This document shows positions 3,654-64,000 of a stretch of DNA of 64,000 nucleotides, one piece after another. Each line of letters opens with the position of its first letter. Within the stretch, counting starts at the first letter, position 1. Both the position numbers and the translations under genes were made by a program. The notes beneath the pieces are model-generated. The model worked only from the letters and a program-made list of their open reading frames with translations, made no database searches and had not been told where the DNA came from. Origin of the DNA: Brachyhypopomus gauderio (taxonomy: Eukaryota > Chordata > Actinopteri > Gymnotiformes > Hypopomidae); the NCBI RefSeq assembly GCF_052324685.1, contig NC_135214.1, forward strand, positions 28,275,489 to 28,339,488. Direction: 5' to 3'.

Positions 3654-6600
3654 CTATATATATGGAGAGTATATAGAGATGGAGAGTAATAGAGAGATTG
3701 ATCATAAATAGAGAGTGAGATTTACAATAGTAGTGAAGTACACAGGGTTCCCAGAGAAACAGTACGTTTCGGACAGAGGTCCGGAGGTTCTTCATCAGTT
3801 GTGCAAGCAAAGTGCATCTGAAGCACATTTATGAATTCTGAAATGTCTGAAACTCTTCTGAAGCACTTTGCTTGCACCGCTAATGAAGGAGCTCCGTCCA
3901 AAACATCCTGTTCTCTGGAAACATTGTGAACTTCACAATTTTGAATATTTCTACATGTCTCTTATTGTAGTACATTGCAGATACTCATTTGAAATATTCT
4001 AATGAAATACATGTAATATATATACGGTAAATGTGCCTCCAGATATGGCAGAGGAAGGGTCGGTTGGCCCTGAAGTTCAGTGCAGCAAGCAGCCGTGTTG
4101 TTCTCAGAGCAAATTACATTATCGCAAATATGTTTTTGGATTAAAGAAACGCCTATCAAAGCCGAACTGCCAACGCCACAAACAGTACAATTATAAACAG
4201 TAACATGGCTATGAATATTACAGATTCAAGTGTGTAAAATCTTAAGCGCTGATGAAACATTTGTGTTCTTAAAGATATTTACAGCTGAACTGAAACGAAT
4301 TACAAAAAAAAAACTTCCCAAAGCATACTGTCAGACTGTCGAGCTCTTTCACAGAACTCTATTTGTATCATACACACATATTTGTAGCACTAAAGCCTTG
4401 AATTTGTTTACAATTTGCTATTAATCTGTGAGCCAAATGCATTCAGTTGTTAGTGCTCTGCTGTTAGCAAGCCTACCCGTCCAAATGCTTTAAACCATTA
4501 AACACATCATAACAAATATCATAATACTATTCAGATACTGCTTATACATGTACAAGCTAATTATTTATTTTACATATCTAAAGACAAAGATTCAATACAA
4601 GAATATTTCTCATAAGCATATAAATGATAAAGCATTTTTACTTGACTACCATAAAAAGTACATAAATAAACCTCATCTGTAAACTCCAAAAACTTCAGTT
4701 GTTGTTTCAGACTGAAAAGACAAAAGCTTAGCACATAACACAGAAGATTCCACTCGGTAAAAACGATTATAATACCAACATGACTGCAGATGCAGTACTT
4801 CCAACACCACCTTTTACTTCACGACATACTGCATTTCACTTCGAAACTGACCTACTCTTAAGTAAAAAGAACCGATTCTATGGTTTGAAACGGTTTTCTC
4901 TTGATTTGCAAGAGTAGAAGTCTCTCTGCCAGGTCACTTTTGACAGCCCTGTAATAAACCGACAGGCACAGCAATGATGTGCGTAGCCAAACAGAAGCGT
5001 CCTCATTTACTGGGTCATTAGCACCTATCCTAATCTGAACAAGTTTCTGAAAACAGCACAAGGTTCTGTCCACTTTGGACTGTTGCAATTCCCACGAGAC
5101 ATTGTTCTTACTGTTCTGGATAAAGCAGGGCAGAAGTCACAGCCCGAGTCATACAACATTCATAAAAAACATACAAAACAAAAACAATAATGCATTTAAC
5201 AATGGCACAACCCAAAGCGATGGAAGTAAATGATGCAACAAGAACAGGCATGGCGGCCTTCTTGAAGTGAAGGCAGGTCCCGGCTCATGTCCGTCCCCTC
5301 TGAGAGCCCTGGGGGAAGGTGAGGCCTAACAAATGGATCAGTTTCCTCAGCGCACTAATTAGCCAGGAGCTACACTTCACCTGTCTTGCATGTCAGCTGC
5401 CTCAGAGTTTACCGCACTCCCCTTCATCACCTCCCGACTCTGAGATGATTAAAACTACTGAACTCGCCGCCATCACGTGTCAAGAGGACAGACGCTGATT
5501 CACTGGCTTAAAACCAAACCAAAACAAAGTGTAAAATGTGTACGGACGAGCCGCTGTGGTCACGCTATTCAGGTTTGCTCTGAATGGCCCATCTAAGACA
5601 TATAAACTACACATCACGCTAAGAAGCATTTAAGAAAGGGAAAAAAGCCATATTCTCACTTCTAATCACCTTCAAACCAGCCACATTGATTTTTCTTATT
5701 TTTGACAAGTTTTAATGGAAAGTTCTATTTAGTGTACCTGCAAATTAAGAACTCTCTGAAGCTTAGGTAAAACAGCAGGATAAGTAACGCGGACTTGGGC
5801 AGAGAGGGTGCTGACTAAAAGACTATTGAATTTCAATTTAAGACCCTTCATTTACATATGGCCCACATTCTGATGCATGGTAAGCAATTTAACGTACTCA
5901 TTCAAGCAGCCACTTAAGGTTTATTTACATAACCTAACTGACCATGTTCAAATTTCTATTGAACTTTCTCCATGGTTTTTAATTTAGGAAATATGGAAAT
6001 GAATGGCAAGGCCAAAACAACACGCTGCACCAAACTGATATGTTTGCTTTACCAATTAGCATGTCTACATGGACCCGAATTTTAAACTCGCTGTCAGTTA
6101 ACATGATGTGCAACATTTATTTTTTGGTCGAGGCTAAATAAAATGCTGATTAAAAGGCCAAATATGAATAAAATTGTTTTTGGGGTTTTTTTTTGCAGAA
6201 TGAAATTATTGTAGCAGAAGAACAATTTTTCCTCCCCCAAGACCTCATGGTAAATTCTGCCCCTCAATATCAAAATGTCTCCTGAATATTTGGCCACAAA
6301 TGGCCCAGTGTCCTCTACTTTGCCGTGTACACAGCAAAACAAGCTCCAGCCAGAGGTTTTTTGGGACTGCTTGTTTTTATTTGTCATCCGTTATTCCTCC
6401 GTGAGGAAACCTGAGTGAATTAAAGTCAGTATTTCTACATCAGCTTTCCCAAATTCATGTAATCAAACAGGCAACGCAATTTTAATAAACAGTCAATCAA
6501 ATCTTTACAGCTGATCTGTGTGCATTATATATTCATTTAATCTATATCTATTTTACTTTTATTTATTTATTTAACATATTTAACATTATTTTACATTAAC

Positions 6601-34077: not shown

Positions 34078-42762
<8,685 letters not shown>

Positions 42763-44994: not shown

Positions 44995-47103
<2,109 letters not shown>

Positions 47104-50879: not shown

Positions 50880-53538
50880 TTACTGGATCTCAGTGCTAGC
50901 TTTGCCCAGGTCATCTCCTACCACATGGACCTTCATACTCTCCTCCTCTTGGTTCACTGCTCGTGCAGGAGGACTGATAGTGGTGTGGAAAGTCAAGTAC
51001 GAGTACAATACTCCGCCAGATATGCTGAACGGTTGAAAGTGGGAGAACAGAGGCAAAAACAAACAGAAAGGTTTGACTTGCATTACTCTACAATATCTGG
51101 ATTTGATAGGGTTTAAATGAGGGAGTCTTACCATATATTTAGCCCTACAAAGTTTGGCCATGAGAATATATAATCTCCTCCAATGAACATGCCAATGTAT
51201 GCTACAGCAACATTCTACAGAAAGCAAAAATAATTAATAAATTTTTTTAATGACTAAAGAAATGTATATCGGTAATGACAGCAAACTAGCAAGCAAATTT
51301 TATCTTCCAAGAAAGATTGCATGACAGATCTAGGAAAAACGCATGTTTACAGAAGGAGAAAAGCTGAAATTACTCATAAATGTTCAACTACCGACTACAC
51401 ACTGCACAGCTAAAATTCTAACCCTATTCTGTCATACAAGATTTCTAAGAATAATGTTGGTTCCTATATCTTGCATACAGAGAGTGAACAGGTCAGTGAG
51501 TAGGCATTAAATGATTCAGAAAGAATAGGAAATGTGTAAATGCAAATGGAGAATGGAAAATAAAACTAACCTTTATTGCCCCAATAACTGTAGTGGTTAG
51601 GGCACTGTTGTAATAACTGCACAAAATAATGGAGTACATCAGAATAAACCTGTGACAAAAAAATAAAACAGTTCAAAGTGATTACTGGCACCATGATTTC
51701 ATTACTGAGCTACATGATTTCATTTACAAAATGGCAAAATGAGATATTCCTTACCCCATGACACAAGACATCAGAAAATATAAAATGAAACTCAGTGACA
51801 GCCATCCTTCAAAGGCAATGGCCTATAAGGAAAACAAACTAAATGGATTCTTTTCATTTTATGCAACTAAGTCATTGGACTGTTTATTTAACTATTTATA
51901 GAGTGACTCATTCACATGATCATTCACCTTTTCCAAATCTCCAGTGTAGGCACTTGCTAAAATAGTTGGTATAATGATGATGAATGCATTGTAGAACAGA
52001 ACTCCATACTTGCCAAGGCCCTTAACAGAAGCGGAACATCACCAAAAGAATAAAGACCGTCACCTCTTCCCTCTACATCTTCAGCATTACAAAAATAGTT
52101 TCCTTTGCAGTACAGTTATGTTACATGTTGTATATATAATTGTTGCACTTAAATAATTTACATACTTTGGAATTATTTGGAATTATAGCCAAAGATGCTG
52201 TGGACAAACACAATGACTAGATTGGCGAGTCACATTACATGCATACCTCCACTCCCAGTTTCTTCTTTGTGTACACCCCACTAGCAGCTGTGAAGACATC
52301 GTTGAGTAGAACAAAAGTGTAACCCTCTACATCAAAGGCCAGGTCAGAGCTAAACCAGTTAATACAAAACAGAAAGATATTTTGCTTGATATGCTTCTGA
52401 GTCGAGACAGAAATACTGCTGTTTATGAATATTTAATGTCACCATCACGGATTACTGTACCTTGCAGCAATTAGAGCACCAAACACTATGGCCAATACAC
52501 TGTACACCAGCTGAGGTGAAAAAGTCTTTCTGTAAGATCAACCTTTTGTTCAGTTTTGACAGATACAGTCTAAATGCAATTTCATTTTACAGTCTAAAAA
52601 GAAAATGGTTCTTGAAGGTGTGTTGACCAAAGGACTAATATGCAACAAACAAAATATTTTTAGAGTTTTTTGGCAGTCTGAGTAGCCACAACACTCAATG
52701 TCAGCACAAAAATTCCCTAAAACTTGGCAGTGGCAAAATGGCCTCACATTCAATAACATGAAACAATATGTTTGCACTAGTTCATAGCGGTACATACATT
52801 TTACAGACTTCTAATATGCCCATTATAGCAGTTCAAGCAGCAACGGTTCCAACATGTTTCGTTTGGAGAACACTACTGGAGTGACTAGAAAAACTGTTAT
52901 GGAATTGAAATGGCTCTGGTAGACATTCAGTAGTTCTGCCTGGAGAGAGAAGAAGAATGACACATACCTTAATATTTTTGACTCCATAATCATTGTGATT
53001 AGAATGGAGAACTTTCGGAGAACAGTGAACATGGGTAAGCTGCAAAATTCAGAGGAACATGAACATCATTGCTAGTTAAACAAAGACAAAGATGAACTAT
53101 TATCCTCTGCAGCAAAGCTACCACATGGAGAAAAGTACTCATCTGCACCAAACATGTACATGACCATTTTATAATGGTAATTTCTATATAACATCTACAT
53201 TCATGAAAGTAGCTAATCATGGCTCACCTTATATGAAAAATGTTATTCTCTTATCTGAATGAAATAATTATGCCTGTCTTCTGAGGCTGAACATGATACT
53301 TAATAATAGGAATAAGTAATAACTTGGGCTTAAACAAATTCATCCTCCGAATATTTCTCTCACTGTATTCTCACTGCATTCATTAACATTCTTTAGATCA
53401 TGGTCTGGTGGTTAAGGAACCAGTCTTGTGACTGTAGGGTCATAGGTTTGATTCCCAGGCCTGAGGCCATGACTGGAGTGCCATTGAGCAATGCACCTAA
53501 CTCCCACCGCTTTGGACAGCCCCTTAATAATCACTAGT

Positions 53539-53590
<52 letters not shown>

Positions 53591-54844
53591 CACGAGAACA
53601 CTTTAGTGGTGAGCCCTTCCACAGTTGGCCTGTCAGAAATTCTTTTAAAGAAAACACTTGACCACAAAGAGACTTTCCATGAAACACATTCTTTTGACAA
53701 TGGTAAAAATATATAATCAGTTCAAACATGATCGTCTTTGGCCACTTTTTCAATTTATTCTTGTGAATAATAATTGAAATTTAATAGTTTCTTTCTGTTG
53801 TTTTAATCCATGAAGTATACATTTATGATTTATATGGTTCATATGTTTATGGTTGATATTTATATGGTTTATTGCATACAAAATGTATACCTTAATTTCT
53901 TTGTGCCTCCCAATCCTGTTACATGATTGCCAACATAGAATAATGGCAAAGGAAAGATCTGTGGAATGTAACACATTAGAGCAAAATCAGTGATCATAAG
54001 ACCCAAAAGGAAACAGTTGATATGTGAAATATATAAATATACATATTAACCTTTCTGGGTAAACTTCTGTCAAAGTCCTGAAAACTGACAGCTTTGCATA
54101 TTTTGGCTATATAGAGAATGATGATAGTGAATGCCATCTGAGGAAGAAAAGTACTATTTAAAATACTAACACTAGTTTTAACAGTTTAGAGAATTCATAA
54201 CCAAAAGTGCAGTCAAACTGACCTGTCCAATTCCTAGGAACATGTATGAGGGAAATCTACATAAAGACAATAATTTTTAATATTTAACGCCCAACACTCT
54301 CTTTATTACACTTATTTATTAGAAGCACACTTCAAACTCTTCATCAACATTCACTTTCTGACTACTTTCTGAGTGTGGAAATAATTGCTGGTAGCCACTC
54401 TCAACCCAGCCAATAACCCAGGTAACACAGGACAAACAATTTGCTAACAATAAGCTACAATCTGTAACAGTACACCTATGAAATGTTAATTAAATTAACA
54501 CGTAACAAAATGTCGGTGGATGAATATGTATAAAGTAAGCAATGTTACAAGCTTTCACGAAAGTCTAATCGATAATACTTCGATACACTTTTGGCTAGTA
54601 AAGAGGGACGTTTCAACAATACGGAAGTGATAGGCTGTCCATGATTGAAGTGGAAGTGTGTGTCTTACCGGTAGTTCGTTAACACAGTCTTGTTAACAAC
54701 GATGATAAGAAAGGAGCTGAGAGCATAAAATGCAGCAGAAAGGACCTTTGCAAATTGTCCGTTTTTTGAACCGGGAATATGTGAAGAACAAGTCGACGAC
54801 GGCGACGAAGACGACGATGAAGTAAAGCAAGAGGCTCTTGACAT
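50880..54844 (-). CDS. slc35d2: Nucleotide-sugar transporter of the SLC35D group (SLC35D2-like)
   Basis: Multi-pass Golgi/ER membrane antiporter that moves UDP-sugars into the lumen in exchange for UMP. Twelve exons on the minus strand: 54844-54669, 54256-54223, 54137-54051, 53958-53891, 53039-52968, 52529-52461, 52349-52247, 52020-51928, 51822-51755, 51649-51571, 51214-51132 and 51024-50880. Joined in frame they give 358 residues. Family blocks in order: ALSSFLIIVVNKTVLTNYRF, FPLPLFYVGNHVTGLGGTKK, LPMFTVLRKFSILITM, SSDLAFDVEGYTFVLLNDVF, GLGKYGVLFYNAF, CSYYNSALTTTVIGAIKN and IGGDYIFSWPNFVGLN. The N-terminus is Ser-rich and poorly conserved, so the start, the first Met of the exon, is less sure. 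SLC35D1 and SLC35D2 are close paralogues; the ZNF367 and CDC14B neighbours point to D2. The tail lacks the Lys-rich end of SLC35D1. Confidence 0.93.
53397..53600 (+). mobile_element. tRNA-derived SINE in SLC35D2 intron 4
   Basis: The text tggtggttaaggaaccagtc followed about 30 bp later by ggtttgattccc matches a pol III A box and B box of a tRNA-like SINE head. A body (ctgaggccatgactggagtg and on) follows, then a (TG)n run at 53547-53589. No flanking duplication was confirmed. Confidence 0.55.
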
Positions 54845-55635
54845 TTTTGTTTTTGGGTAATGACGTTTCCTCTAACTTGTCGACCTAATTTTGCCGTGCA
54901 GAGTGAAACATTTCGCAGAGATTGCACTCCCAAAAAGTGGGAGTGCATTCAGAACATTCTCTCTTCATCTGTGCTAAAACTATTTCAAAAGATTTTCCGA
55001 CGGTAAACCCCGATACAGGTGAGCTCTGCCGGCCAGGCACTAAACTGGGTTGGCATACTGAAGTTGAAACTAACAGCGTCCATCCACTAGATGGGAGGCT
55101 AGTGCCTTCACAAATGACTAAATCTTTGTGACTAAAATATTTGTATTCACATTGTCCATTTGTAATGTTATTGGCTTACTAAAGAACAGATAGCATTGAC
55201 AGAAGTAATAACATTAATTCACCTGTTATTGCTGTTTTGACAACACGCAATGCATATTACACAATACTATATAGATTATTGGAAACTAGCGAGGAATTGC
55301 GCAGTACTACCTATTCTGATAAAATATTTATATGACCAACTCTTTAGTAGAATATTCATGCAGCAGTCTATGTATGAAGAGACAAAGCTTATGAATATCT
55401 CATTTTATTTACAGATAATTAATTAATATAGTGACCTTTAACAACCATCAGTGAGGCATCAAATGAAAATCAGAGTAATTATTATGAAAAGTCATTAAAG
55501 AAAGGTGTTAATATTTATATATATTCTGTTTAGTACAAAACATGCCCAGATTTAACACCCACACCCCATTTAACATCAACAACTAAACGTGATGCAGATG
55601 TCTGACCATATGTGTATTTCATTAATCACATTATA
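54845..55635. other. Spacer between SLC35D2 and the chemokine gene
   Basis: Contains the SLC35D2 upstream region on one side and the likely 3' UTR of the chemokine gene on the other. A minus-strand AATAAA is read from tttatt near 55404. No other gene seen. Confidence 0.5.
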
Positions 55636-57338
55636 TTATCCATGCTTTCTGCAGTCGATTCTTCTGCATTTTCTCTTCGTCCTTCTGGTCCTTTGGCCCC
55701 TCGCCCTAACTATCTTATCCACATTTTTCTTAAACTTCACATCTATGCAGAATTTCTTGTTTTCCATATACAGTCTGTAAAAGGGAGCAAAAACATTCAT
55801 ATTATTATAAACTGTATCTGGGAATTCAAATCAACCTCAAGAAAGCAACAAGATAAAAGAAGAAAAGAGGAGAGAGAAGAGAAGAGAAGAGGAGAGGAGA
55901 GGAGAGACAAGACACTTTATTTTTCTAACACCTTTCATACACACCAGCGATTCAAAGTGCTTTACACAAGGAAAAAAAAGAAGCTTTATATGACCTGAGA
56001 TATCATCTTAGGAAGTTTATTGCCAAAATGTATAATAAATAAAAAACAAGATTTTAAAGGAATAAAGTAGAAAAAAAATGAATTAAATAAAGAATTTAAA
56101 GAAAAGGGGTTTAAAATTACTCAAAAGTAAATTGAGATAAATTAAAGTAATATTAAGATAAAATACCCATGAATTAAAGAAGATAATAATAATGAAAATA
56201 AGAATAAGTAAAAGATAAAAATAACTTATTCAAAAATCTTATGTAACATCTAATCCAAACCAAAAGCTTGGCCATATAGGAATGTTTTTATCTTTGATTT
56301 ACAAATATGTAGTATTGGAGCTGTTCAATTATTCAATTCAAAAACACATCTTTTAAACTTGCTTGTTCACGTTAATTGATTGATTTATTTTATAGTAATT
56401 TTAAGTACAGATTTTTATTTATATATTGTTTGTGTGTGTTGTACTTTGATTTGTGATGTAAGGTGACCATGAGTGTCTTGAAAGATGTCAATAATTTATT
56501 ATTATTGTTCTAATATCCACTCACTGCTGGTTCCATTTGGAAACAGCATAATAGCTAAATGCTACATTTCCATAATTCGTTTTTACCTTGGGCAGTACTA
56601 ACTGATTAGTTCCTAATGACCTAAGATTCCTGCCTGGCTCATAGCTGTGCAGCAAGTTAGACAGATATAGAGAAGGATTTGAAAGGCACTATGAAAGTGT
56701 TCATATTGGATACATCCTCCACTCACATCAATGCTGGAATATCACAGGCTCCATCTATTCTTTGAATCTCATATCTTGTAATTTTCCGTATTGTTTGGTG
56801 GGAAACTTTCGTTGAAACGTTTACACAGCAGTGTGGAATGTATCCTGTTATGAAACATAATTCACCGTCACAGTAGATTTGACCATTCTAGTCTCCCTTA
56901 TGACAAGTAAACAAATGTTTTATCTGCTACATTTTAGTCCTTGCTACAGAAAACATGAGACAATTACTTCAAGTGAGCACCTCAATTTTTTTTACAATGT
57001 TCATGTATTGTGTAATGCCTTTGGGAAAACGCATATAAACGTCAACCATTAGTTAGCAAAGTTAATAGCAATACAGTAGAAAAATTCTACTGAAACCAGT
57101 TTCACTAGTTCATTAATTTCATTACACTAGTGATCTTAAATAACCTTTCTGATAAATACCCACTGAGCAGCACAAATGCTTCATGAATCCCTCATGACTG
57201 AGATCACATACAAACAATATTGCACACATATAAGCAGTATGTAGTTCTCCCCTCTGTGGCTGGTTCCTTACCATCAGTAGTGATGAAGATGATGGAACAC
57301 AGGAGAAGAAGAGCCAGGCCCGCACCTCGCAGCTCCAT
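55636..57338 (-). CDS. ccl27/ccl28-like: CC chemokine of the CCL27/CCL28 type
   Basis: Small secreted chemoattractant; its mammalian relatives act through CCR10 and CCR3 in skin and mucosa. Three exons on the minus strand: 57338-57272 (22 codons plus one base), 56844-56727 and 55774-55636. Phases are 1 and 2, and the product has 107 residues. Exon 1 is a signal peptide (MELRGAGLALLLLCSIIFIT). Exon 2 carries the adjacent cysteines (IPHCCVNVSTKVS) and the third cysteine in RYEIQRIDGACDIPAL. Exon 3 starts ILYMENKKFCIDV with the fourth cysteine, then a very basic tail with two more cysteines (KRKCRRIDCRKHG). The IQRxDGxCDxxAxIL pattern matches human CCL28 (IQRADGDCDLAAVIL) and CCL27. All borders are GT-AG. 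It sits between SLC35D2 and vasotocin on the same strand. CCL27 versus CCL28 orthology is not resolved. Confidence 0.87.
55855..55975 (-). mobile_element. LINE 3' tail with GAGAA microsatellite, in chemokine intron 2
   Basis: On the minus strand, gtgtaaagcactttgaatcg and then a gtatgaaaggtg stretch precede a GA-rich tandem run (plus-strand gagaagagaa, about 55861-55910). This is the usual layout of a fish L2-like LINE tail. Only the tail is visible. Confidence 0.4.
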
Positions 57339-57635: not shown

Positions 57636-57705
57636 AATAATAATAATAATAATAATAATAAGGTGCACTTATATAGCACCTTTCAAAGTACCCAAAGACG
57701 CTTTA
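57636..57705 (-). mobile_element. LINE 3' tail with (TTA)n microsatellite
   Basis: On the minus strand, a cgtctttgggtactttgaaa stretch followed by ggtgctatataagtgcacc runs into about eight ATT units (plus-strand taataataa, 57636-57661). This resembles L2-type LINE tails. It lies upstream of the chemokine gene. Confidence 0.45.
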
Positions 57706-59002: not shown

Positions 59003-61255
59003 TCAAATCTGTGTCTGCCCTCTAGTGGCCAGGTTGAAGAGACGCACCAGTGTTTCTCTGGTTGAGGCACTGCTCAGTTTGGTGTTCACTTCTGCAGGAT
59101 GGTTAAACCTGCTGTCTTCTGAACAGTTTGAATAGAGGACACACCTCTCTGCAAAAGAGAGTAATGCCAAAACCTGAGCAAACATGACAAAGAAATATGG
59201 ACACACCCAGAAATCATCGATAAACCAGTCATGTCAGTACCTGATATCTTGTGTGCAATATGAAGGGTTTAAACTAACTGAATTATTATTTTTACAGGGT
59301 GTCACTGACCTGAGTCACAGCAGATGCCTGGAGCAGCACAACGCCCCCCCTCGGATCCACAGGGTCTCCCTCCACTCTCGCAGGGGCTGGGCAGGTAGTT
59401 CTCCTCCATGCAGCCGGCTGCCTCTGGTGAGCCCACGTAGCAGCCCAGATCTGCTGCACAGCAAATACTGGGGCCAAAGCAGCGGCCCCTCTCCCCAGGA
59501 CCACAGGACATGCACTTCAGAAGGGAGATTATGTTGCACCAAACCATCATACATGCATCAAATTAATATCGCATTCTCACATAATGAAAGTCAATGAAGA
59601 GTTAAGTGTGCCTGTCATATGTTACGTGACGTTAGAATGGAGGCATTCTTACATCCGTTTGTCCAAATAACAGAAGGGAAGTTCGTCACGGCTGCATGAT
59701 GATGTAATATTGCTTAGGCATTACTAATATTTGTTTTATGAGTGTTTTATACACTCATTGGCCACTTTATTAGGTACACCTGTCCAACTACTCATTAACG
59801 CAAATGTCGAATCAGGCAATCACATGGCAGCAATGCACAATACGTCATGCACAATACGTCAAACCTTGAGGTGGATGGGATACAGCAGCAGAAGACCACA
59901 TCAGCTGCCACTCCTGTCAGTTAAGAACAGGAAACTGAGGCTACAATTCACACAAGTTCACCAAAATTGGACAATAGAAGATTGGAAAAATGTTGCCTGG
60001 TCTGATGAGTCTCGATTTCTGCCGCAATATTCGGATGGTAGGGTTTGGCTTCAACAACATGAAAGCATGGATCCATCCTGCCTTGTATCAACAGTTCAGG
60101 CTGGTGGTGCAATGGTGTGGGGGATATTTTCCTGGCATACTTTGAGCCCATTAGTACCAATTGAGCATCGTATCAATGCCACAGCCTTCCTGAGCATTGT
60201 TGCTGACCATTTCCATCCCTTTATGACCACAGTGTTCTCATCTTCTGATGGCTACTTCCAGCAGGATAACATGCCATATCATAAAGCACGAATCCTCTCA
60301 GACTGGTTTCTTAAACCCAACAATGAGTTCACTGTACTCGAATGGCCTCCACAGTCACCAGATCTCAATCCAATAGAGCACCTTTGGGATGTGGTGGAAC
60401 GGGAGATTCACATCATGGATGTGCAGCCGACAAATCTGCAGCAACTGCGTGATGCTATCGTGTCAATATGGACCAGACTCTCTGAGGAATGTTTCTAGTA
60501 CCTTGTTGAATCTATGCCACGAAGGATTAAGGCAGTTCTGAAGGAAAAAGGGGGTCCAACCCAGTACTATCAAGGTGTACCTAATAAAATGGCCGGTGAG
60601 TGTACATTTTCTAAAAGTTTTTTAGTAATTTCAACATTTTCAAAAATACAAAACTTCCAACTTCCATTAAGTAGCACGAGGGCTTAAAACTAGATTACAA
60701 CATTCTATCCAGTTTCAGATGTGATACAAATTCCTACCAAGCTTCAAAAGCATCTACCTTATACAGTGTCCTAAACATCACTTATAGAATTTACCTTCAT
60801 TTACAACTAAATTACTCTTTTGTTACACCCATTAAACCGAGTGCTTCACGATTTTATATGATATATGCTAAACATGTTTATGTAGCAAAAGCAAACAATG
60901 CCTTTCTTATTTTATCAATCAGCTGTAATGATCGAACGCTGCATTAAAGCAGCACAGCAAATAGTACCTTTAAATACCTTTTTAAACAAATCTTTTTATG
61001 CAATGTTGAATATCGCCACTTGTCGGTAACATTTACAAGTGTAAACTTTAGCAAGGGTATAAATGTAAACTACAGGCTATTAGATAGAGAAAGTGTAACT
61101 AATGTAACTATTGGGATACTTGCCTGCCTTATTCCGATACCTGGAGACGAGCGCTTCCCTCCACGCGGGCAGTTCTGAATATAACAGGCGGAAGAGAGCG
61201 AGGACAGCGCTAGGAGACAGATCATGCCCGCTGGAAGCCAAGAGTCGGACATCAC
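59003..61255 (-). CDS. avp: Vasotocin-neurophysin precursor (arginine vasotocin)
   Basis: Prohormone for the neurohypophysial peptide vasotocin, the fish counterpart of vasopressin, with its neurophysin carrier. Three exons on the minus strand: 61255-61124 (44 codons), 59514-59310 and 59148-59003. Phases are 0 and 1, and the product has 160 residues. Exon 1 gives a signal peptide ([12 protein letters not shown]), the nonapeptide CYIQNCPRG (Ile3, Arg8) and the amidation/cleavage site GKR. Exon 2 is most of neurophysin, with [20 protein letters not shown] and EENYLPSPC; with exon 3 it has the expected 14 cysteines. Exon 3 ends in a copeptin-like region with an NCS sequon and a Leu-rich [11 protein letters not shown] segment. 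The start could be Met1, Met2 or Met11. Donor 1 is GC rather than GT. Intron 1 holds a Tc1-like insertion. Confidence 0.97.
59752..60602 (+). mobile_element. Truncated Tc1-like transposon in vasotocin intron 1
   Basis: Terminal repeats CACTCATTGGCCACTTTATTAGG-type (59752-59781) and its imperfect inverse (60573-60602) are flanked by TA on both sides, the Tc1/mariner target. The element is about 850 bp; full-length Tc1 elements usually exceed 1.2 kb. It lies in the opposite orientation to the host gene. Confidence 0.85.
59866..60586 (+). pseudogene. Tc1-like transposase relic
   Basis: The frame encodes the catalytic half of a Tc1 transposase: [10 protein letters not shown] (first Asp), [16 protein letters not shown] (second Asp) and [12 protein letters not shown] (Glu), a DDE arrangement. 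The N-terminal paired-type DNA-binding half is missing apart from a short [11 protein letters not shown] piece. A TAG stop at 60496-60498 interrupts the frame, after which [14 protein letters not shown] continues. It is therefore not functional. A 14-bp direct repeat (tgcacaatacgtca) lies near 59834-59861. Confidence 0.85.
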
Positions 61256-61367: not shown

Positions 61368-61593
61368 GGACATTTAATGTCGCTACTCCCTCCCACCTCT
61401 AAGGTATCTGCTAAAGTAATACTCGAATAATGCCGGCTGATTAAGCTAAATGCTCTGTTTTTGCTCTGTGTTACTGCTGTTACAGTAGCTACAACTTTTT
61501 AAGTAATCAAGGAGAAGCCAAAATAATAATAAATTACATTACATTGTGTGTTTTTCAATAGATTAATATGAGAGGAAACTACAACTTGGCTAA

Positions 61594-62538
61594 CTAATCA
61601 TCACACAGCCAGCATACACCAGGATAATTCAACTACTAACCACACAGCCAGCATACACCAGGATAACTCAACTACTAACCACACAGCCAGAATACACCAG
61701 GATAACTCAACTACTAACCACACAGCCAGAATACACCAGGATAACTCAACTACTAACCACACAGCCAGCATACACCAGGATAATTCAACTACTAACCACA
61801 CAGCCAGAATACACCAGGATAACTCAACTATTAACCACACAGCCAGAATACACCAGGATAACTCAACTACTAACCACACAGCCAGCATACACCAGGATAA
61901 CTCAACTACTAACCACACAGCCAGCATACACCAGGATAACTCAACTACTAACCACACAGCCAGCATACACCAGGATAACTCAACTACTAACCACACAGCC
62001 AGAATACACCAGGATAACTCAACTACTAACCACACAGCCAGAATACACCAGGATAACTCAACTACTAACCACACAGCCAGCATACACCAGGATAATTCAA
62101 CTACTAACCACACAGCCAGAATACACCAGGATAACTCAACTACTAACCACACAGCCAGAATACACCAGGATAACTCAACTACTAACCACACAGCCAGCAT
62201 ACACCAGGATAACTCAACTACTAACCACACAGCCAGCATACACCAGGATAACTCAACTACTAACCACACAGCCAGCATACACCAGGATAACTCAACTACT
62301 AACCACACAGCCAGAATACACCAGGATAACTCAACTACTAACCACACAGCCAGCATACACCAGGATAACTCAACTACTAACCACACAGCCAGCATACACC
62401 AGGATAACTCAACTACTAACCACACAGCCAGCATACACCAGGATAACTCAACTACTAACCACACAGCCAGCATACACAAGGATAACTCAACTACTAACCA
62501 CACAGCCAGCATACACCAGGATAACTCAACTACTAACC
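61594..62538. repeat. 39-bp minisatellite, 24 copies
   Basis: Unit cacacagccag(c/a)atacacc plus aggataa(c/t)tcaactactaac, 39 bp, repeated 24 times with very few differences. Because 39 is a multiple of three, one minus-strand frame stays open through the whole array (13-residue period MLAVWLVVELSWC). That is a by-product and not a gene. The array starts about 230 bp upstream of the vasotocin CRE-like site. Confidence 0.97.
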
Positions 62539-64000
62539 AAATACTAACTAAGCTAAGCTTTACTCACCATGACACCTTAGGACATAAATACATTTACATT
62601 GTCACAAGGAAACAAATAGATGAAAAATTACAGAAGCAAATGATGGTAGTGGAACAGAAAGGCAAGCAGATATGAAGGGGTTAATGTTGAGGACTGTAAA
62701 AGATGTGAAGGGAGAGAGGTCAGACTATCAGAATCACATACATCTTATTCATCTGCACAACATGCAGCTAGGAAGAAAACAACAGAAATGCCTGTTTTGC
62801 ATTCAAAACGGTGTGAGCACTAATTTGGGATAACATTTTCAAATAATTCAGCGACATGCAGGGTGACACAAAAGCAAAAGATGAGTATAAAGCCTAATGC
62901 TAAAGCATTTCATAATATTCCTTTTTAGTTCTTTCTTGCAATATTTTATTTATGTGTTTGCATACTAAGCTGAATTGGTTTTAAGTACAGTATATGTGAC
63001 ACCAGGCTGTTTTGACACAGATCAACTATGACAACTTTGATACTATGATCAGTTGACAATAATGTATAAATGATGCCTAATTCAACTAAATGGCATACAT
63101 ATAGGTGCTTGATAAGTAAAATATGATTTGAGATACAGAGTGATGACTGTGCCTCATAATTTAATAAGCATAATCCACATAAACGACAGGATACATTTAA
63201 ACAAGTTTAGATAGCTTCATGATTACTGAGAACAAGTCTGAGAACTGCTCAGTAAATCATATGTAGCTACTGTTTGCTAGTGGCCATTTCTAACTATTTT
63301 GATTTAAATCGTTTAAGATTGATGAAAAGTCCTTTCTGCCAGCACATACTGAGATCGGACAATGTTACCTGCTACATTCTGCTGCACTGAAACAAGTTAC
63401 TCCAATTATGGCTGTTGGGGTGTAAGCTTCATTTGGGGAGGGGTTCTAGTTGCTGTTAGGTCTGTTAAGATTATATAGCACTTTTTTCTGTAAAACACAG
63501 TTAAAACTATATGGAGATCCAGAATTTGTTCTGCCTCTAAATCCCATCACAAATTATAAAACATAAAGTGTGATATTTAAAGATTTGTCAGTCATACCAG
63601 AACAGTTTTATTTTGAACATAATGATTTAATTGAAGGGAGCAAAATGAATTTACTTAACAGTATTGAGCTACTTATTAATAGTAGTATTCATCTAAGTAG
63701 AATTCTCTGTGTAGTATTCTATAGTGTTCTCTCCACTACTTCCAGTGGAGACACTATCATGGCTCTCAGTAAATGACAGAACTGCCACAATCCCCATGGA
63801 CTCAACAGATAATTAAAAGGAAACTAAATATACATTTATATGGAAGAAACAGGATGATTTTTGGAAGTCAGAACCCCCCCCCCCCCCCCCTTTTTTTTTT
63901 TGTAACCCATGCAGTCAGCAGGATTGATTAAACTGGTCTGGCCAATCCATGCATAATAGCAACTGCCCAAAAGCACTTAGTCAATTGTTCAGTGTACACA
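62539..64000. other. Right-end region without a visible gene
   Basis: AT-rich sequence. It contains a C17/T11 homopolymer junction at 63874-63901. Short open frames here have no recognisable features. Confidence 0.5.

Follow-up and report, generated by a model that had tools for sequence, protein, structure and literature searches.

The window analysed, a stretch of 64,000 nucleotides of the Brachyhypopomus gauderio genome (contig NC_135214.1), carries on its minus strand, in this order, a vasotocin gene, a chemokine gene of three coding exons, and exons of an SLC35D-family gene (Table 1). Both introns of the chemokine gene have GT-AG boundaries and interrupt the frame in phases 1 and 2; exon 2 is preceded by ..CATAACAG and followed by GTGAGT, and exon 3 is preceded by ..CCCTTTTACAG. 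Joined, the three exons form a frame of 324 nt that is free of internal stops and encodes a precursor of 107 amino acids (MELRGAGLALLLLCSIIFITTDGYIPHCCVNVSTKVSHQTIRKITRYEIQRIDGACDIPALILYMENKKFCIDVKFKKNVDKIVRARGQRTRRTKRKCRRIDCRKHG). The coordinates and phases of the exons in the initial annotation were exact to the base, with GT-AG introns and an open frame, and its remark that the exons are too short to appear as long open frames was borne out, as the minus strand of 55636-57338 contained no ORF of at least 90 amino acids. CC chemokine genes typically consist of three exons separated by introns of phases 1 and 2. However, a script that imposed these phases produced models, several of them implausible, for 25 of the 30 chemokine loci in the same genome, so that the phase pattern is no independent test. 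The sequence TATATAAG at 57675 was considered as a promoter and rejected, as by eye it resembles a piece of a dispersed repeat.

Table 1. Features of the chemokine locus of B. gauderio and of two related loci elsewhere in the genome (positions are those of the window unless a contig label is given).
Feature	Position	Strand	Characteristics
Chemokine gene, coding exon 1	57272..57338	minus	holds the start codon and a stretch resembling a signal peptide; phase 1 at its end; donor GTAAGG
Chemokine gene, coding exon 2	56727..56844	minus	runs from phase 1 to phase 2; holds the CC motif, IQRIDGACDIPAL, and three of the four core cysteines (the first three)
Chemokine gene, coding exon 3	55636..55774	minus	holds the last of the core cysteines, the basic C-terminal tail with two extra cysteines, and the TAA stop
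Candidate AATAAA polyadenylation signal	55404..55409	minus	about 230 bases past the stop; consensus match only
Vasotocin precursor	59305..61186	minus	CYIQNCPRG at 61160-61186, neurophysin at 59305-59517; Pfam Hormone_5 (3.9e-24) and Hormone_4 (0.0013)
SLC35D-family exons	50943..54775	minus	tblastn with human SLC35D2 and SLC35D1 queries
Second CCL27/28-type gene (L039)	C10:24474000-24483500		exons 4697-4751, 5063-5177 and 5438-5537; phases 1 and 2
CCL25-like gene (L034/L038)	C12, near 2843927-2844127		41% identity to human CCL25 across 66 columns of the alignment

The joined product displayed all protein features that the initial annotation had listed, namely a hydrophobic start resembling a signal peptide, a CC pair, an IQRxDGxCDxxAxIL stretch, and a basic tail. 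The putative signal peptide contains the stretch ALLLLCSIIFI (11 residues; mean Kyte-Doolittle value of 3.2). The core cysteines occupy positions 28, 29, 56, and 71 of the precursor, which corresponds to the spacing of chemokines with the first two adjacent, and two extra cysteines are found in the tail at positions 98 and 103. A single N-glycosylation motif was found at residue 31 of the precursor, and the last 30 residues carry a net charge of +12. A motif of the IQRxDGxCDxxAxIL type marks the CCL27/CCL28 family, and the third disulfide of human CCL28 pairs a core cysteine with a tail cysteine. The mature window protein shares with human CCL28 (PDB 6cws) the CC pair, this motif, a total of six mature cysteines, a net charge of +16 (compared with +4 for human CCL27), and a basic tail; in the alignment of the PDB match, IQRIDGACDIPALIL of the window protein is opposite IQRADGDCDLAAVIL of CCL28. 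The two proteins differ in the placement of the extra cysteines, of which human CCL28 has one each in core and tail, whereas in the window protein the core position holds no cysteine and both extra ones are in the tail, which is also shorter and lacks the tryptophan. Because the core cysteine is missing and both extras lie in the tail, an assignment to CCL28 rather than CCL27 is not claimed on sequence. Both the window gene and the second CCL27/28-type gene on C10 lack the tryptophan of the C-terminal helix; this residue occurs in 12 of the 13 B. gauderio rows of the trees described below, the C10 gene being the exception, a count that is biased in that direction, since the procedure choosing exon 3 for these models rewarded tryptophan. 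The differences in cysteines and tryptophan are variations and do not constitute a new kind of chemokine. Possibly, the third disulfide has been relocated, in that the cysteines at positions 98 and 103 of the tail, which lie five positions from each other in an arginine-rich context, may pair to form a small, separate cationic loop; this is a tentative proposal. If true, it would represent a lineage variant of the antibacterial tail that is separable from the chemokine core.

The assignment of the initial annotation to the CCL27/CCL28 type of CC chemokines was upheld by the ranking of PDB matches, by shuffle-controlled alignments, and by phylogenetic trees. Only four of the 177,635 distinct PDB sequences matched the precursor at E ≤ 10, with human CCL28 first (2.5e-7), followed by CCL27 (1.5e-4), and including platelet factor 4 and MIP-3alpha; human CCL28 itself, used as a query, gave no matches at E ≤ 0.001 apart from its own entry and CCL27. 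Among 14 human references, the alignment score was highest for CCL28 (106), followed by CCL27 (87), CCL25 (84; a reference sequence with no PDB chain for comparison), and platelet factor 4 (58), the other ten scoring lower. The shuffle-controlled z values were 16.4 for CCL28, 15.7 for CCL25, and 14.7 for CCL27; those of 11 chemokine models from the same genome did not exceed 8.2. The trees included B. gauderio rows picked by hand (11 of the 25 models for 30 loci), leaving out near-copies of the tandem array on C11 and implausible exon pairs, and a second tree added the C10 and C12 genes. In a protein search and trees with human CCL25, CCL27, and CCL28, a check of the kind that the initial annotation had proposed for vertebrate sequences, the window gene was placed with CCL27 and CCL28. 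Indeed, it grouped with the human CCL27 and CCL28 sequences in the first tree of 26 rows (support of 99/96), and in the second tree the group consisted of the window gene, the C10 gene, CCL27, and CCL28 (96/92, or 99/96 when three long rows were removed), in which the window gene joined the C10 gene (89/70). The rows were short and the terminal branch of the window gene was long, with 3.37 changes per column in the first tree and 2.79 in the second; the highest identity in the trees (29-30%) was to the B. gauderio model own_L014, which was placed outside the CCL27/28 group.

Alternatively, the gene could encode a divergent CCL25-type chemokine. The third place of human CCL25 by score and its second place by z value would agree with this, as would the equal lack of the tryptophan in CCL25, and AU tests rejected none of the placements compared, be it a grouping with CCL25 (p = 0.197), with CCL28 alone (p = 0.328), or of the CCL19 type (p = 0.079). 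Nevertheless, the support for the CCL27/28 group in both trees and the alignment of the IQRxDGxCDxxAxIL stretch with CCL28 argue against it, and a better candidate for CCL25 exists in the genome at C12:2843927. For the third exon of this C12 gene, the candidate ranked second was selected manually, and the same exon was matched by the genome-wide Pfam scan. The presence of this separate CCL25-like gene makes a CCL25 identity of the window gene very unlikely.

A protein search of the 796.5-Mb genome listed seven matches, three of which were the exons of the window gene itself. The others were C12:2843927 (30% identity; 5.1e-4), C10:24479046 (33% identity; 0.0087), and two weak matches on C6 and C25 (E values of 3.4 and 6.8). 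No second close copy was among the matches listed; as this search scores the best candidates only and leaves out some withheld stretches of the genome, 'single copy' means here that no second close copy was among those matches. The C10 gene resembles the window gene in its three exons with introns of phases 1 and 2 and carries an NGACDIDAVVL motif, but it differs in having four cysteines only and a tail of 23 residues with a net charge of +6. A decaying or silent chemokine copy, as might be suspected from the long branch and the missing tryptophan, is highly improbable for the window gene, of which the frame, start, stop, splice sites, and four core cysteines are all intact, and for which no better copy was among the matches of the genome search.

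Profile searches and a null-controlled scan addressed the gene model from another side. The joined protein matched the Pfam IL8 family (PF00048) with an E value of 8e-8 (32.8 bits; curated cut-off of 21.3). Exon 2 alone, as a protein, reached 6.3e-5 (23.5 bits), which improved to 1.6e-8 when 27 residues from the start of exon 3 were added; exons 1 and 3, each on their own, gave no Pfam match. When the minus strand from 54.9 to 64.0 kb was scanned with Pfam in three frames and without joining of exons, the chemokine gene was missed at E ≤ 1; the scan returned both neurohypophysial domains and, weakly, RPS31 (0.65). In an exon-by-exon Pfam scan of the whole genome, exon 2 was among the 86 matches listed (C4:28332214-28332321; 20.3 bits, E value of 0.486, below the cut-off of 21.3). 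Of these 86 matches, 27 fell in a densely packed cluster of CC chemokine exons on C11 (14986224-15430406). In the null-controlled scan, the candidates were AG..GT stretches that were open, had a length of 80 to 148 bases, and showed the phases of exon 2 (1,310 on the minus strand and 1,061 on the plus strand). They were scored against the exon-2 pieces of human CCL28, CCL27, CCL21, and CCL20, and ten null scans (two reversed strands and eight Markov resamples) were treated likewise. Exon 2 ranked first with a score of 78, compared with 39 for the next best candidate on both strands of the window and 38 for the best null. The possibility that short open frames without any relation were joined by chance, to which the silence of exons 1 and 3 in Pfam and the failure of the unjoined scan could point, is therefore contradicted by the null scans and by the Pfam match of the joined protein, and is negligible.

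The neighbours were as the initial annotation had described them, the chemokine gene being flanked by vasotocin and by exons of the SLC35D family. The best bit scores of the SLC35D exons were 75.9 for SLC35D2 and 74.7 for SLC35D1; as score alone does not separate the two, the name SLC35D2 rests on the neighbourhood. A Pfam scan of the minus strand from 45.0 to 54.9 kb, again in three frames and without joining, gave nothing at E ≤ 0.01 and left these exons unmatched. On the plus strand of the same region, C2H2 finger matches below the curated cut-offs were found near 46 kb, and the C2H2 exons at 45940-46343 (+) look, by eye, like those of ZNF367. Similarly, a phosphatase motif was present near 37.7 kb, and the exons at 37049-37761 (+) are presumably those of a CDC14-type phosphatase, again as judged by eye. 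Just upstream of vasotocin, three long open frames of 317 to 367 amino acids, each in a different reading frame, overlap one another at 61572-62675 (+), 61594-62547 (+), and 61601-62563 (-); the minus strand at 61601-62563 gave no Pfam match.

A study of 2015 (PMC4432659) dealt with the neurohypophysial gene loci of the spotted gar and teleosts, using blocks from NCBI and Ensembl, and the legend of its Figure 6 lists avp, oxt, znf367, slc35d2, ccl28, and cdc14b among other genes. The znf367, slc35d2, avp, and cdc14b of these fish vasotocin/isotocin loci fit the neighbours found here, and ccl28 is of the same family as the window gene, in a comparison that is based on the gene list of the legend rather than on gene order per species or on sequences. 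Since the legend pools loci, paralogons, and human reference blocks, the adjacency of ccl28 to avp is inferred. Hence, ccl28 has already been published in association with the vasotocin locus, very probably at this place, and the view of the initial annotation that the gene is hidden and easily missed is doubtful, given the appearance of ccl28 beside znf367, slc35d2, avp, and cdc14b in that legend. The main text of a paper on vasotocin nomenclature (PMC8081664) contains no ccl28, ccl27, slc35d2, znf367, or cdc14b, and another study (PMC3568907) mentions CCL27 once, the ancestral protochromosome of which could not be specified. Among the literature matches listed for the pairing of the chemokine with vasotocin and slc35d2, nothing relevant was found beyond PMC4432659. 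Taken together, it is highly probable, as judged from sequence, that the window contains a fish gene of the CCL27/CCL28 group that is intact and would most probably be the ccl28 listed for the vasotocin neighbourhood.

By analogy, the product of this CCL27/CCL28-type gene is likely a secreted mucosal chemokine with a cationic tail that acts directly, perhaps as an antibacterial. As judged from other fish, it would be secreted from the mucosal epithelium of gill, skin, and gut. Indeed, gill and skin are given as the main sites for trout CK11 and the sole sites for catfish SCYA126 in PMC4690017. It may then signal via a CCR10-type receptor on lymphocytes; CCL27 and CCL28 appear as CCR10 ligands in the receptor table of that source, and CCR10 is described as common to both and CCR3 as specific to CCL28 in PMC12556802. 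Finally, the strongly cationic C-terminal tail may bind glycosaminoglycans and damage bacterial membranes. CCL27/28 proteins with cationic C-terminal regions are described for several fish species in PMC9241943. In that work, peptides derived from the C-termini of croaker CCL28 and trout CK11 were antibacterial, and the croaker peptide was shown to damage membranes. These two proteins belong to the same group as the window protein and share its cationic C-terminal region, a likeness by description rather than by alignment. According to the same source, fish CCL27 tails have little activity, and trout CK11 shows antimicrobial activity rather than attracting unstimulated leukocytes (PMC9241943), so that neither half of the proposed function is assured.

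This analysis adds a clean gene model of the CCL27/28 type beside vasotocin in one more fish. It leaves the picture of the field unchanged, the product being an ordinary fish immune-signalling protein of a known family, and is of use for annotation and for the comparison of fish CCL27/28 tails, which are studied as antibacterial peptides.
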